From Bacteroidota bacterium (GTDB lineage Bacteria; Bacteroidota; Bacteroidia; AKYH767-A; OLB10), in the NCBI GenBank assembly GCA_947453935.1, contig CANGJU010000007.1, forward strand, positions 1 through 51,534: a stretch of DNA of 51,534 nucleotides, read 5' to 3'. Both the position numbers and the translations under genes were made by a program. Each line of letters opens with the position of its first letter. Within the stretch, counting starts at the first letter, position 1. The notes under the pieces are model-generated. The model searched no databases. It saw only the letters and a list, made by a program, of their open reading frames with translations, and was not told the DNA's origin. Positions 4,812 through 23,462 of this stretch are shown one piece after another.

Positions 4812-5780
4812 ATGTTGCAAAGTGAAATGCAAAACTGCTTACATCATACCGATTTTAAATTTGAAAGAACAACTTCTATTTATAACGGAAAAGTACGTGA
4901 CGTCTATGTGATTGATAATACTTGGATGTTAATGGTAGTTAGTGATCGTATTTCAGCTTTTGATTTTGTAATGCCACGACCAATTCCTTATAAAGGTCAG
5001 GTATTAAATCAATTGGCAGCTCATTTCTTAGAAGCAACAAAAGATATTTGTCCGAATTGGGTGTTATCAGTGCCAGATCCTAATGTAACTATTGGGAGAT
5101 TATGTCAGCCATTTAAAGTAGAGATGGTTATTCGTGGTTATTTAACGGGACATGCATGGCGCGAATACAGCGTGGGTAAGCGTATTATATGCGGTGTTGC
5201 AATGCCTGACGGAATGAAAGAGAATCAAGCTTTTCCTGAGCCAATTATTACGCCTACAACTAAGAGTGATCACGGCCATGATTTAGATATTTCAAGGGAA
5301 GAAATATTAAAGCAAGGAATCGTAAGTGAAGCAGATTATTCGGTGCTTGAAAGTTACACACGCGCATTGTACAAGCGAGGAAGTGAAATGGCAGCTGAAA
5401 AAGGATTGATATTGGTCGATACGAAATATGAATTTGGAAAAGCAAACGATACAATTTATTTAATCGATGAAATCCATACGCCTGATTCTTCTCGCTATTT
5501 TTATGCTGACGGATATGCGCAACGTTTAGAGAACAATGAACCTCAGCGTCAGTTGTCGAAAGAGTTCCTGCGCCAATGGTTAATTGCTAATGATTTTCAA
5601 GGTAAGGAAGGTCAGGTCATTCCTACATTCTCTGATGAATTCATTCATGAAATCAGTGAGCGTTACATTGAACTTTACGAGCAGGTGAGTGGTAAAAAAT
5701 TCGTGAAGGGCAATGATGAAGATATTCAAACACGCGTTTTGAATAATTGTAATGAAGCGATTAAAGGTTTGATTAAATAA
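4812..5780 (+). CDS. purC: SAICAR synthase (purine biosynthesis)
   Basis: Phosphoribosylaminoimidazole-succinocarboxamide synthase joins CAIR and aspartate using ATP in de novo IMP synthesis, in the cytosol. Family motifs are clear: Y-N-G-K-V-R-D-V-Y near residue 24 (nucleotide binding), S-D-R-I-S-A-F-D near residue 44, and [11 protein letters not shown] near residue 110. At 322 aa it is of the longer, single-domain ADE1-like type. It lies 22 bases after phoH on the same strand. Its last codons overlap by 8 bases the 3' end of the convergent acyltransferase gene, so the two transcripts are antisense at their ends. Confidence 0.95.
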
Positions 5781-19654: not shown

Positions 19655-19798
19655 GAGGGAAACTATTAAGCTGAATTTGCTCTTTCTTGAAATGATATTG
19701 CATAATTCATTTTTTGATGATTTTGCATCACACAATTGTACAAAAAAACAAGCTAAAATAAAACCTCGATTAGGGTATTAGGTTTCACAGTTTAAAGG

Positions 19799-19913
19799 AT
19801 TATAATGGGAAATTATTCATTTAATTGGTTTTATTGTGGAAAATAATTGCCATTTATAATGCTATTATGGAAAAAAATATCATAATTTTGATAAAACTCA
19901 AATTATAATGGAA
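19799..19913 (+). repeat. Four phased repeats related to ATTATAATGGA upstream of the AbiEi-Fic gene
   Basis: Related copies read attataatggga, ttattgtgga, ctattatgga and attataatgga. Their TGG triplets begin at 19806, 19837, 19868 and 19909, giving spacings of 31, 31 and 41 bases, close to whole helical turns. The last copy contains the ATG start codon of the Fic gene. Inverted relatives (CCATTTATAAT at 19850-19860) are also present. The arrangement suggests a multi-site operator, possibly read by the protein's own N-terminal domain. Confidence 0.5.
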
Positions 19914-21389
19914 AAATCTTTACCAATTCACTTGAGAGAAGTTCTTTTTGGTTCGAAAGAACCTAAAACATCAAAACAAATTTTAAGTTTACTTAAAGCA
20001 GGTGAAATACGAAAAATTTCTCCAAGGGTTTATACATCTAATTTAATAGAACCTGCTGAGGATATTATCCGCAGAAATTTATTTATCATCATTGGTAATT
20101 TGTATCCTGGTACAGTTTTAAGTCATCGATCTGCCTTTGATTTCCAACCTACAAAGACTGGTCAATTGTTTCTAACGAGTAGTTACACAAAAAAGATAAA
20201 GCTTCCTGGAATTACACTTCATATTTTAAAAGGGTATGGACCCATTGAAGGTGATACATTGTTTTCTGGAGAATTATATGTTTCACAAAAAGCAAGAGCT
20301 TTTTTAGAGAATTTACAAATAGCGAAGAAGTCAGGCAGTAGTTCAAAATGTTTGAGTGCTACTGAAATTGAAGAAAAGTTAGAACAAATAATCAGAGTGT
20401 ACGGTGAAGGTGAAATAAATAAAATCAGAGACCGAGCGCGAATAATTTCCAAAAAATTTAAAATGACTTATGAATTTGAAAGGTTAAATCGTTTGATAAG
20501 TGCTCTTTTAACTACAAAGTCATCTCGTATATTAACAACTCCACTAGCCAAAGCTAGAGTATTTGGATTACCTTACGATCCAGTAAGGCTAACATTGTTT
20601 GAAAAATTATTTCGAGAATTAAATAATCAAGATTTCCCTTTTCTAGACGATAAAAATGCAACACCTACATCGTTTCGAAATTTCGCTTTTTTTGAAAGTT
20701 ATTTTTCCAATTACATAGAAGGGACGGTTTTCGAAATTGATGAGGCAAAAAAAATTATTAAAACCAATAAACCATTAGCTACAAGAAATGATGATAGTCA
20801 TGATGTTTTAGGTACTTATGCAATTGTTTCCAATCGAAAAGAAATGGAAATTGTTCCTAATACACCTGAAGATTTTATTAAAATTATCTGTTTGCGACAT
20901 TCTATATTGTTAAGTGCAAGGAAGGATAAAAATCCAGGTGTTTTCAAAGACAAAAATAATTTTGCTGGAAGTACATCTTTTGTAGATTTTAATTTAGTCA
21001 AGGGTACACTCCAACAAAGTTTTGATTATTATCAAGCATTAAAACATCCATTTGCAAGAGCTGCATACATTATGTTTGTGATGAGTGAAGTCCATCCTTT
21101 TCTTGATGGGAATGGCCGAATTGCCCGTGTAATGATGAATGCTGAATTAGTCAAGGCTGGTCAAGCAAAAATAATCATTCCGACTGTTTATAGAGATGAC
21201 TATATGGGCGCTTTGAAAAAGCTGACAAAAAAAGGCATTTGCGATACCTATATAAAAATGTTGCAAAAAGCACATGCTTTTAGTGCGAATGTTCATGACG
21301 AAAAAATGGATTATATGCAAAAGTATTTAAGTAATTGTAATGCGTTTTCTTCGGATAGTGATGTGATTTTAAAAATTGCAACTCGGTGA
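19908..21389 (+). CDS. Fic domain protein with N-terminal AbiEi-like domain
   Basis: The protein has 493 aa. Residues 1-190 resemble AbiEi-type antitoxins of type IV toxin-antitoxin systems: a winged-helix start (S-K-Q-I-L-S-L-L-K-A-G-E-I-R-K-I-S-P-R-V-Y) and the G-T-V-L-S-H-R-S-A-F-D block. Residues 210-490 form a Fic domain with the complete active site H-P-F-L-D-G-N-G-R-I-A-R near residue 402 (catalytic His, ATP-binding GNGR). Upstream, near residue 271, S-N-Y-I-E-G fits the inhibitory (S/T)xxxE(G/N) motif, so the enzyme is probably an autoinhibited AMP transferase. Targets are unknown. No separate toxin or antitoxin gene adjoins it. Phased repeats cover the promoter and start codon. A plausible role is regulated stress or phage response, which is inference. 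Confidence 0.8.
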   Translation: MEKSLPIHLREVLFGSKEPKTSKQILSLLKAGEIRKISPRVYTSNLIEPAEDIIRRNLFIIIGNLYPGTVLSHRSAFDFQPTKTGQLFLTSSYTKKIKLPGITLHILKGYGPIEGDTLFSGELYVSQKARAFLENLQIAKKSGSSSKCLSATEIEEKLEQIIRVYGEGEINKIRDRARIISKKFKMTYEFERLNRLISALLTTKSSRILTTPLAKARVFGLPYDPVRLTLFEKLFRELNNQDFPFLDDKNATPTSFRNFAFFESYFSNYIEGTVFEIDEAKKIIKTNKPLATRNDDSHDVLGTYAIVSNRKEMEIVPNTPEDFIKIICLRHSILLSARKDKNPGVFKDKNNFAGSTSFVDFNLVKGTLQQSFDYYQALKHPFARAAYIMFVMSEVHPFLDGNGRIARVMMNAELVKAGQAKIIIPTVYRDDYMGALKKLTKKGICDTYIKMLQKAHAFSANVHDEKMDYMQKYLSNCNAFSSDSDVILKIATR

Positions 21390-21446
21390 TGTGTAGAGTT
21401 CGTTAGTGTTTTTTTATATATTTGATAAACCTTCTTTTGATTATTT

Positions 21447-22181
21447 GTGAAATCAACTCGCCTAGCCATTTTGTTATTGTTCATTTTAACAGTAGCCATT
21501 ACTTCTTGCTCTGATGATAATTCACCGGGTGGAAGTAGCAATAATAACGGTGGTGGTGCTAACACTGGAGGTTGTGCTGGCGGACCATCAACAGTAACTG
21601 ATATTGATGGCAATGTTTATCATGTAGTGAGTATAGGAAATCAATGTTGGATGAAGGAGAATTTAAAAACAACGCATTATAAAAATGGTGCAGCTATCCC
21701 TAGTAATTTAACAGATGCCCAATGGCAAGCAACTACAAGTGGAGCAAGCGCAGATTATAATAACGACCCAACAAATACAGCAGTTTATGGTAAACTATAC
21801 AATTGGTATGCGGTGGCCGATCCTCAAGGGCTTTGTCCAACTAATTGGCATGTACCCACTGATGCTGAATTTGATACCCTTTTTAATTATTTAGGAGGTG
21901 ACTCTGTTTGCGGAGGTGCCATGAAAGAAATTGGCACTACGCATTGGGCAATTCCAAATACTGGGGCGAACAACAGTAGTGGTTTTTTGGGCCTTCCAGG
22001 TGGTGTTCGTTATGGCAGCGGGGTATACGGATTTGTTGGCTACTATGGTTACTGGTGGAGTGCTACGCAGTTCTCGTCAGCAGATGCGTACTTCCGTTAC
22101 CTGAATTGCAGCAGTAGCGGTGTGAGTAGGAGCAGCTACGAAGTGGCCTTCGGGTTTTCTGTGCGTTGCGTTAGGGATTAG
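21447..22181 (+). CDS. FISUMP-domain lipoprotein with DGR-like variable C-terminus
   Basis: The precursor has 244 aa from a GTG start, with a lipobox V-A-I-T-S-C (Cys about residue 21), a Gly/Asn/Ser-rich linker (25-45) and a FISUMP (Fibrobacter succinogenes major paralogous) domain from about residue 50 to the end (G-N-Q-C-W-M-K-E-N-L, L-Y-N-W-Y-A-V, C-P-T-N-W-H-V-P-T). It is probably a surface-exposed lipoprotein. The final 55 codons differ sharply from the rest: rich in AGC, TAC, TTC, TGC and GCC codons and ending in the fixed G-F-S-V-R-C-V-R-D. An inverted repeat follows one base after the first two stop-codon bases. This is what a DGR variable region would look like (see findings). Confidence 0.8.
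   Translation: MKSTRLAILLLFILTVAITSCSDDNSPGGSSNNNGGGANTGGCAGGPSTVTDIDGNVYHVVSIGNQCWMKENLKTTHYKNGAAIPSNLTDAQWQATTSGASADYNNDPTNTAVYGKLYNWYAVADPQGLCPTNWHVPTDAEFDTLFNYLGGDSVCGGAMKEIGTTHWAIPNTGANNSSGFLGLPGGVRYGSGVYGFVGYYGYWWSATQFSSADAYFRYLNCSSSGVSRSSYEVAFGFSVRCVRD
22005..22181 (+). other. Candidate DGR variable region (VR)
   Basis: This covers the last ~59 codons of the FISUMP gene. By my count about 40 percent of codons end in C here against about 10 percent in codons 50-150 of the same gene, and they are mostly of the form NNC that AAC template codons would give after adenine mutagenesis. The 3' end (GTGCGTTGCGTTAGGGATTAG) would be the invariant initiation-of-mutagenic-homology segment. No template repeat or reverse transcriptase is in the window. 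Confidence 0.45.
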
Positions 22182-22205
22182 CCATATAGGTCGGTTCCTG
22201 TATGG
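22182..22205 (+). repeat. Inverted repeat directly after the candidate VR
   Basis: CCATATAGG (22182-22190), a 6-base loop TCGGTT and CCTGTATGG (22197-22205) pair over 8 of 9 positions. The hairpin starts at the base after the stop codon. DGR variable regions are typically followed within a few bases by a hairpin or cruciform that aids retrohoming. There is no T-tract, so a terminator is less likely. Confidence 0.6.
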
Positions 22206-22285
22206 TAAGGTTGTAGCCTTCACTGAGAGAGGCTTGGGGGTATATGTTTTTGAACAAATTGGATATCTAACCACTTACCCATTTT

Positions 22286-22423
22286 ACAATTTGTAAAGTA
22301 AAAACATTACAATTCGTAAAGTAAAATCCTCACAATTTGTAAAATAAAATCCTTATAATTTGTAAAGTAAAAACCTCGCAATTTGTAAAGTAAATAGTTG
22401 TTAATTTGTAAAATAAGCCTATA
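22286..22423. repeat. Six tandem copies of a 23-bp repeat
   Basis: Units start at 22286, 22309, 22332, 22355, 22378 and 22401, always exactly 23 bases apart. The shared core is close to ACAATTTGTAAAGTAAAA followed by a variable 5-base part. The first copy, with its flank, contains the palindrome TTTACA-ATT-TGTAAA. There is no spacer between the units, so this is not a CRISPR array. The rest of the gap 22182-22712 holds the VR hairpin and AT-rich DNA with the next operon's promoter, and I see no gene in it. Confidence 0.9.
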
Positions 22424-22587
22424 GAATATTGGAATTCAATATTTTATAAGTGTAATAGTAATAGTTTTTTCAGGTCTTCAAGGAAATAATTTTTTATCAT
22501 TGATAGTCGTCAACCTACATTAATAATGTAATAATGAATTAGACAATTAAACAATATTTTGGGTTTGATATTTTACCCCCATTTTAT

Positions 22588-22638
22588 GTAAAAAATTAAT
22601 TTTTACTACTTTAAAAAGAATTTTACATTGTATATTTG
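22588..22638 (+). promoter_or_regulatory. Promoter region of the ParE-type TA operon
   Basis: TATATTTG at 22631-22638 matches the -7 consensus. A 19-base near-palindrome, GTAAAAA-N5-TTTTTAC, lies at 22588-22606 just upstream and could be an operator. No TTG is found at the ideal -33 position. Confidence 0.4.
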
Positions 22639-22712
22639 TGAAGATAGATAAAATAAATTTTCAATAGTGTTGTTTTAATTATGCAATACGAAATATAAAA
22701 GATTTTACAAAT

Positions 22713-22949
22713 ATGGATTTGCAAACCCGAAAATTGAACTTTATTAGAGACTTTCTTAAATTAGAAAGTGAGAAAGCTATATCCCATTTAGAAAAATTAT
22801 TGCAAAAGGAAACAATAAGTGATTCTGAAATAAAGCCAATGTCAACAAAAGAATTTCAGAAAAGAATAAATCAATCTACCAAAGATTCTAAGAGCGGAAA
22901 ATTAATTGAAAACAACAAATTGATTTCTCAGATTGATAAATGGATTTAA
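22713..22949 (+). CDS. Putative antitoxin of a ParE/RelE-type module
   Basis: This 78-aa charged, helical protein (S-E-K-A-I-S-H-L-E-K-L-L-Q-K-E, then M-S-T-K-E-F-Q-K-R-I-N-Q-S) lies directly before the toxin gene and overlaps it by 10 bases. Size, charge and position fit a type II antitoxin; many Bacteroidota ParE partners have this K/E-rich form ending in a motif that wraps the toxin. No DNA-binding fold is obvious, so autoregulation is uncertain. The call rests mainly on context. Confidence 0.65.
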   Translation: MDLQTRKLNFIRDFLKLESEKAISHLEKLLQKETISDSEIKPMSTKEFQKRINQSTKDSKSGKLIENNKLISQIDKWI

Positions 22950-23257
22950 TAATTTATTGGACAGATTTTTCAAAGAACGAGTTAAAAAAAATTTTTAATT
23001 TTTATAAAAAAGAAGCAAACCAAAATGTTGCAAAATCGCTCGTAATAGGAATTGCCAACGAAGTCAATAAGCTTAAAAATCATCCTAAAATTGGTCAACA
23101 AGAAGAACTATTAGCAAGTGATATTAGAGATTTTCGTTACCTCGTCTTTAGAAATTATAAAATAATTTATTGGGTAAATTCAGCAGAAAACAGAATTGAG
23201 ATTTTTGATGTTTTTGATACTAGAAGAAACCCAACCAAGCTTGTAAATAGGAAATAA
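22940..23257 (+). CDS. ParE/RelE superfamily toxin
   Basis: The protein has 105 aa with the ParE/RelE fold pattern: I-Y-W-T-D-F-S-K-N-E-L-K-K-I at the start, two helices, then L-K-N-H-P-K-I-G-Q-Q near residue 52, D-I-R-D-F-R-Y-L-V-F-R-N-Y-K-I-I-Y-W in the central strands and I-F-D-V-F-D-T-R-R-N-P at the end. The D-x-R-(Y/F) and F-D-T-R-(R/Q)-(N/D)-P blocks are typical of the family. ParE members poison gyrase and RelE members cut mRNA on the ribosome; the final T-R-R-N-P favours ParE without proving it. The 10-base overlap with the antitoxin indicates translational coupling. Confidence 0.88.
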   Translation: MDLIIYWTDFSKNELKKIFNFYKKEANQNVAKSLVIGIANEVNKLKNHPKIGQQEELLASDIRDFRYLVFRNYKIIYWVNSAENRIEIFDVFDTRRNPTKLVNRK

Positions 23258-23462
23258 AATCAAGTTTTTTTTTATGATTTGAAAAATTGTTCCTTGTAAT
23301 TTATAATCTTTATTTAATATTTCGCGATATAACTCCATTTAATATAAGTCGTTTAAGTCGTTTTTCAGTTTGTTCAAAGGCTAAAGCTCGCAATAATGGC
23401 ATTTTACGTTTTTAGCAATTATTTTCCTATTTTTATTCTCTTCAAAACATTTTAATTTATCT

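Follow-up and report, generated by a model that had tools for sequence, protein, structure and literature searches.

FISUMP proteins have already been described as targets of diversity-generating retroelements (DGRs) (PMC4159848), and bacterial DGR targets can be remote, located more than 370 kb from the reverse transcriptase (RT) (PMC3521204). Large DGR surveys begin at the RT and overlook targets that do not adjoin it, as has been stated for remote targets (PMC8144416). Here, we analysed a stretch of 51,534 nucleotides (the window), which is contig C7 of a 2.23-Mb Bacteroidota genome assembled in 203 contigs and 79.9% complete. A FISUMP lipoprotein gene in the window ends in a tail that we read as a variable region (VR) made by a DGR whose machinery is no longer resident, so that the VR is orphaned; we assign this reading a probability of about 0.5. 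The locus shares with DGRs that have Fib_succ_major targets, namely the published example (PMC4159848) and two reference systems described below, the same C-terminal domain, a VR in the last ~60 codons and C-ending codons at template-Asn positions. Like the published example, it encodes a lipoprotein. However, all of those systems have an RT and a template, whereas neither was found for the window, and its bias was measured on the templates of other species.

Of 80 related loci, one, L078, holds a complete DGR that comprises a FISUMP target, Avd, an AAC-rich template and an RT. Its cis VR is mismatched at 19 of 58 template adenines and at 0 of 125 other bases, and the cis VR of the second reference system, in genome G069, has mismatches at 31 of 69 adenines and at 0 of 116 other bases. 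Both pairs served as positive controls. FISUMP genes on three other contigs of G069 have mismatches at 36/69, 37/69 and 32/69 adenines versus 9/116, 7/116 and 16/116 other bases, respectively. Because these genes on other contigs share the adenine bias, remote FISUMP targets are a real arrangement. A DGR RT is present in G067, with no AAC-rich template found near it, and the DNA examined around the RT in G076 and G072 yielded no template. Two further loci, L087 and L060, showed a weak bias when compared with template candidates of their own genomes. AAC-rich FISUMP-type template candidates are also located beside DGR RTs on two contigs of a 7-Mb assembly (G085:C430 and C1183; L202, L203).

The features of the window locus are listed in Table 1. 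The lipoprotein gene matches PF09603 with 147.7 bits (cut-off 33.9, E 6e-43) and TIGR02145 with 115.9 bits (cut-off 41.65, E 3e-33), both above the curated cut-offs. Its N-terminus is readable as a signal followed by the lipobox, and the acidic SDDN behind the lipobox cysteine is similar to the signals for surface export in Bacteroidota lipoproteins. A search by sequence for a solved structural relative of the protein gave none. The AlphaFold model, with a pLDDT of about 96 over residues 51-244, is C-type-lectin-like, and it matches the C-terminal domain of Lcl (Z 8.2), TaqVP (Z 6.6) and BACOVA_04982 (Z 5.1), although these Z-scores are middling. The sequence identity to TaqVP, other C-type-lectin-fold DGR variable proteins and Lcl is about 11-16%. 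The predicted model thus agrees with the first-pass annotation of this DNA, in which FISUMP had been likened to a C-type-lectin-like display scaffold. This common fold supports a display role but is no proof of one. The VR is placed at the 3' end of the C-type-lectin-fold gene, the same position as in L078.

Table 1 Features of the FISUMP locus in the window.
Feature	Position	Strand	Description
FISUMP (Fib_succ_major) lipoprotein gene	21447..22181	+	244 aa; GTG start; lipobox ITSC near the N-terminus (lipobox read from sequence)
Putative DGR-type variable region (VR)	21990..22151	+	bounds by homology to the L078 VR/template pair, beginning at the ALPGG codons; A-biased mismatch to heterologous templates; excess of C-ending codons and of GC
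Fixed GFSVRCVRD end, in the position of the IMH-like segment of DGR targets	22152..22178	+	30-nt end 87% identical in the nearest species (VR 53%); similar ends in many FISUMP genes
Hairpin directly past the stop codon	22181..22206	+	stem 22181-22190/22197-22206; 6-nt loop TCGGTT

The composition of the gene changes towards its 3' end, and the break falls at the start of the VR. C-ending codons make up 33% of the final 58 codons versus 14% earlier in the gene. In these 58 codons, 19 were observed against 8.6 expected from the codon usage of the window itself, corrected for amino acid content (z 3.94), a value reached in 10 of 1336 58-codon stretches of other genes. The GC content of 22005-22181 is 52% versus 42% in the remainder of the gene, and only 0.16% of the 177-nt stretches in the window are as GC-rich. 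The switch to C-ending codons that the first-pass annotation had noticed is therefore real, though the 40% and 10% that it gave were slightly overstated. The GC-richer GFSVRCVRD segment, which it had described as a fixed end, is present and is part of the FISUMP domain. Among assemblies whose FISUMP ends are C-rich, 4 of 15 have a detected DGR RT, versus 1 of 13 among those with C-poor ends. Taken by itself, codon bias is therefore weak evidence, and the excess of C-ending codons was rejected as a stand-alone DGR marker.

The tail was compared with the AAC-rich templates of other species, real ones being available from complete DGRs that have FISUMP targets elsewhere in the Bacteroidota. Against template G071_C87, mismatches are found at 40 of 61 adenines versus 40 of 128 other bases (31%), and against template G071_C237, at 35 of 53 adenines versus 31 of 107 other bases; the p-value is 8e-6 in each case, but such values assume independent sites and are obtained on other species' templates, and thus they are better suited to ranking genes than to proving origin. 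Of the remaining FISUMP genes in this genome, those with a long enough alignment show no adenine bias. When 32 FISUMP ends from the genus were compared in codon alignment, the window gene and L019 of congener G004 ranked top, a ranking that is independent of template G085_C1183, which was disregarded as a non-template copy. The kind of substitution is also similar to that of the reference systems. At mismatched template-A positions, C is found once in 40 in the window tail, and in 1/31 and 0/19 in the two cis VRs; among the first and second bases of the 24 template-Asn codons, C occurs at 0 of 48 in the window and at 1 of 48 in fresh cis VRs. Of the window codons at these 24 positions, 21 end in C or T. 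The remaining three are A-ending, which suggests either that the template was another one or that the codons have drifted since they were last rewritten. Judged from these alignments, an adenine imprint is present in the tail, with a non-A divergence too high to name a template. The first-pass claim of a DGR variable region stands as regards the anatomy and the adenine imprint, the latter as measured on heterologous templates.

The inverted repeat reported past the stop codon is real. As DNA, its fold has a z-score of -3.9, which 0 of 200 shuffles equalled, and the post-stop fold of the FISUMP gene (34 nt, -12.4 kcal/mol as RNA) is the most stable among 32 genes. Like the target hairpin of phage BPP-1, it is located just 3' of the VR, and its stem of 9-10 pairs compares with a reported 7-10; unlike that hairpin, it has no GRNA in its loop, and the stem is AT-richer (PMC3240598). 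The chances are about even that it plays no role in DGR targeting and is an ordinary structure of the mRNA 3' end or of transcription termination. The 6-nt loop and the AT-rich middle of the stem, where phage DGRs have GRNA loops of 4 nt and stems rich in GC, are consistent with such a structure, as is the less stable stem in the nearest species. On the other hand, no T run directly follows the hairpin, and its position, immediately past the stop codon, is the one in which a hairpin is found in DGR targets.

The first-pass annotation had seen no RT in the window, and for DGR RTs this holds across the whole 79.9%-complete assembly. A search with the BPP-1 RT as query found none in this genome or in the genus, including six congeners that are 84-99% complete. 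Congener RTs found by the Pfam model were rejected as non-DGR by their motifs. In the whole family, a DGR RT was detected in G018 only, and this RT, used as a query, detected none in G004 and G005. The sole RVT_1 protein detected in the own assembly (L001, contig C3) has the motifs GAPTSPVISN and VTGLVVN and matches retron RT profiles at about 1e-94; it was rejected as a DGR RT, being retron-type by profile (1.6e-94). The gene of this retron-type RT (L001 1258-2415, G000:C3) lies between DnaB-like helicase and glycoside-hydrolase-25-like lysozyme genes, as read from the translations, and the same arrangement is repeated in congener G004. The own genome, at its 79.9% completeness, gave no Avd, and in the search for a template by blastn in this incomplete assembly the sole match was the VR itself. 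A template-compatible pattern, in which every VR base is itself or A and 3 mismatches are tolerated, likewise matched only the VR in 42 genomes of the order. Phage records searched by blastn with the FISUMP gene gave no match, and two scans of IMG/VR, one for an AAC-rich end pattern and one for the template-compatible pattern, gave nothing. Relatives of the FISUMP protein in IMG/VR are two FISUMP genes, which are without an RT or a C-rich end. Since the retroelement was not found in the genome or in close relatives, the gene probably represents the orphaned target of an already known type of system.

The first-pass annotation had favoured a target that is diversified at present by an RT elsewhere, in which case a DGR RT and its template would be located in the fifth of the genome that is unassembled, on a phage or on a plasmid, and the VR would still be diversified in trans. 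At 79.9% completeness, the RT machinery is possibly just unassembled, which counts against an orphaned VR. Remote FISUMP targets exist in G069 and the published distances are large, and the GC-rich VR, the hairpin and the intact reading frame are what an active target would have. Furthermore, the gene resembles the remote bacterial targets in that its VR is far from any RT and that it belongs to a larger paralogous family with most members undiversified; those targets, however, have a matching template within their own genome (PMC3521204). We consider active remote diversification rather unlikely, given the lack of a DGR RT in the six congeners and of a template in the 42 genomes of the order, and an orphaned VR fits these results better.

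The same locus in the nearest species (L038, genome G005) is syntenic with the window, with an identity of about 90-92% over 12 kb, and 3' of the gene (22240-23430) the identity is 97-100%. With one genome compared per species, the FISUMP gene is 74% identical 5' of the VR and 53% identical in the VR. The VR differences are about equal at codon positions 1, 2 and 3 (26, 22 and 28, respectively), while those in the gene upstream of the VR favour the third position (39, 29 and 72). Few third-position changes would be expected from one AAC-type template, and thus the two look like old alleles that were swapped here, with faster amino acid change in the VR, rather than like two rewritings from a single template. 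The differences are not confined to the positions that one shared template could make variable. The 28 third-position changes out of 58 also argue against a remote target under active diversification. Ordinary FISUMP hypervariability without a DGR, with the ligand-binding face under diversifying selection and the GC-rich end imported by homologous recombination from paralogues or other species, would agree with the divergence of the whole gene, and not of the VR alone, between flanks that are 90-99% identical, with the similar GFSVRC ends in genomes without a detected DGR and with the common C-rich ends in assemblies without a DGR RT, but it is improbable in view of the absence of adenine bias in the other tested FISUMP genes of this genome, the scarcity of C at template-A positions and the coincidence of the VR start with the composition break.

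For an orphaned VR, we infer that a DGR made it, that this DGR was lost rather than left unassembled, and that the protein has a ligand-display role. A FISUMP-targeting DGR would have written the VR here or in a source lineage. Reverse transcription of an AAC-rich template RNA would have introduced mutations at adenines, and the resulting cDNA would have replaced the VR as far as the fixed GFSVRC end. The RT machinery would later have ceased to be resident, leaving the VR as an orphan display surface on a C-type-lectin-like scaffold, which may now be altered by point mutation, selection and recombinational exchange of whole alleles. More tentatively, FISUMP receptors with DGR-made binding faces may persist without a DGR in the genus and be swapped between species as ready-made alleles that recombine at their conserved ends. 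The locus illustrates that a target is recognisable from its own composition when this is combined with other species' templates. It also illustrates that display genes with the shape of DGR targets are present where no DGR is detectable. Should orphaned VRs persist and be moved by recombination, DGRs would affect the surface diversity of bacteria more widely than RT counts suggest.

A DGR remnant was found in the genus. Contig C244 of G002 (L197, 844-1349) encodes an adhesin of the collagen/DUF1566 (Lcl_C) type that has a VR-like end. Next to it lies a truncated Avd, in which the similarity ends after about 42 residues and unrelated genes come next. No RT was found in the G002 genome. The L197 tail has mismatches to the G018 template at 25 of 49 adenines versus 22 of 82 other bases (p 0.005). 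This remnant, with its VR-like end, truncated Avd and no RT, indicates that a DGR was probably once present in the genus and then lost; it was probably of a DUF1566-targeting rather than a FISUMP-targeting kind. Elsewhere in the window genome, a tandem array of four FISUMP genes, none of which has a C-rich end, occupies one 3.4-kb contig (G000:C186; L010, L013, L014, L017), and similar arrays are found in congeners G001 and G005.

Several smaller features were observed around the locus. The stretch 22240-23430, whose identity to L038 exceeds the about 90% of the wider region as if recently exchanged, contains a ParE-type toxin gene (PF05016, 22940-23257) preceded by a small antitoxin-like ORF (22713-22949). 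Between the FISUMP gene and this toxin-antitoxin pair, an AT-rich 23-bp repeat, TTACAATTTGTAAAGTAAAAACC, occurs five to six times in tandem at 22284-22416, and a 23-base gap within 22240-22299 of the alignment with L038 corresponds to one repeat unit. Upstream, a Fic-family gene (19908-21389) lies inside 19661-21399 of the window, where L038 has about 500 unrelated bases. Near the synteny break, upstream of its FISUMP gene, L038 carries at 5524-5553 an isolated non-coding 30-nt FISUMP gene end, GGGTTTTCTGTCCGTTGCGTTCAGGAATAA, which is possibly a recombination footprint.
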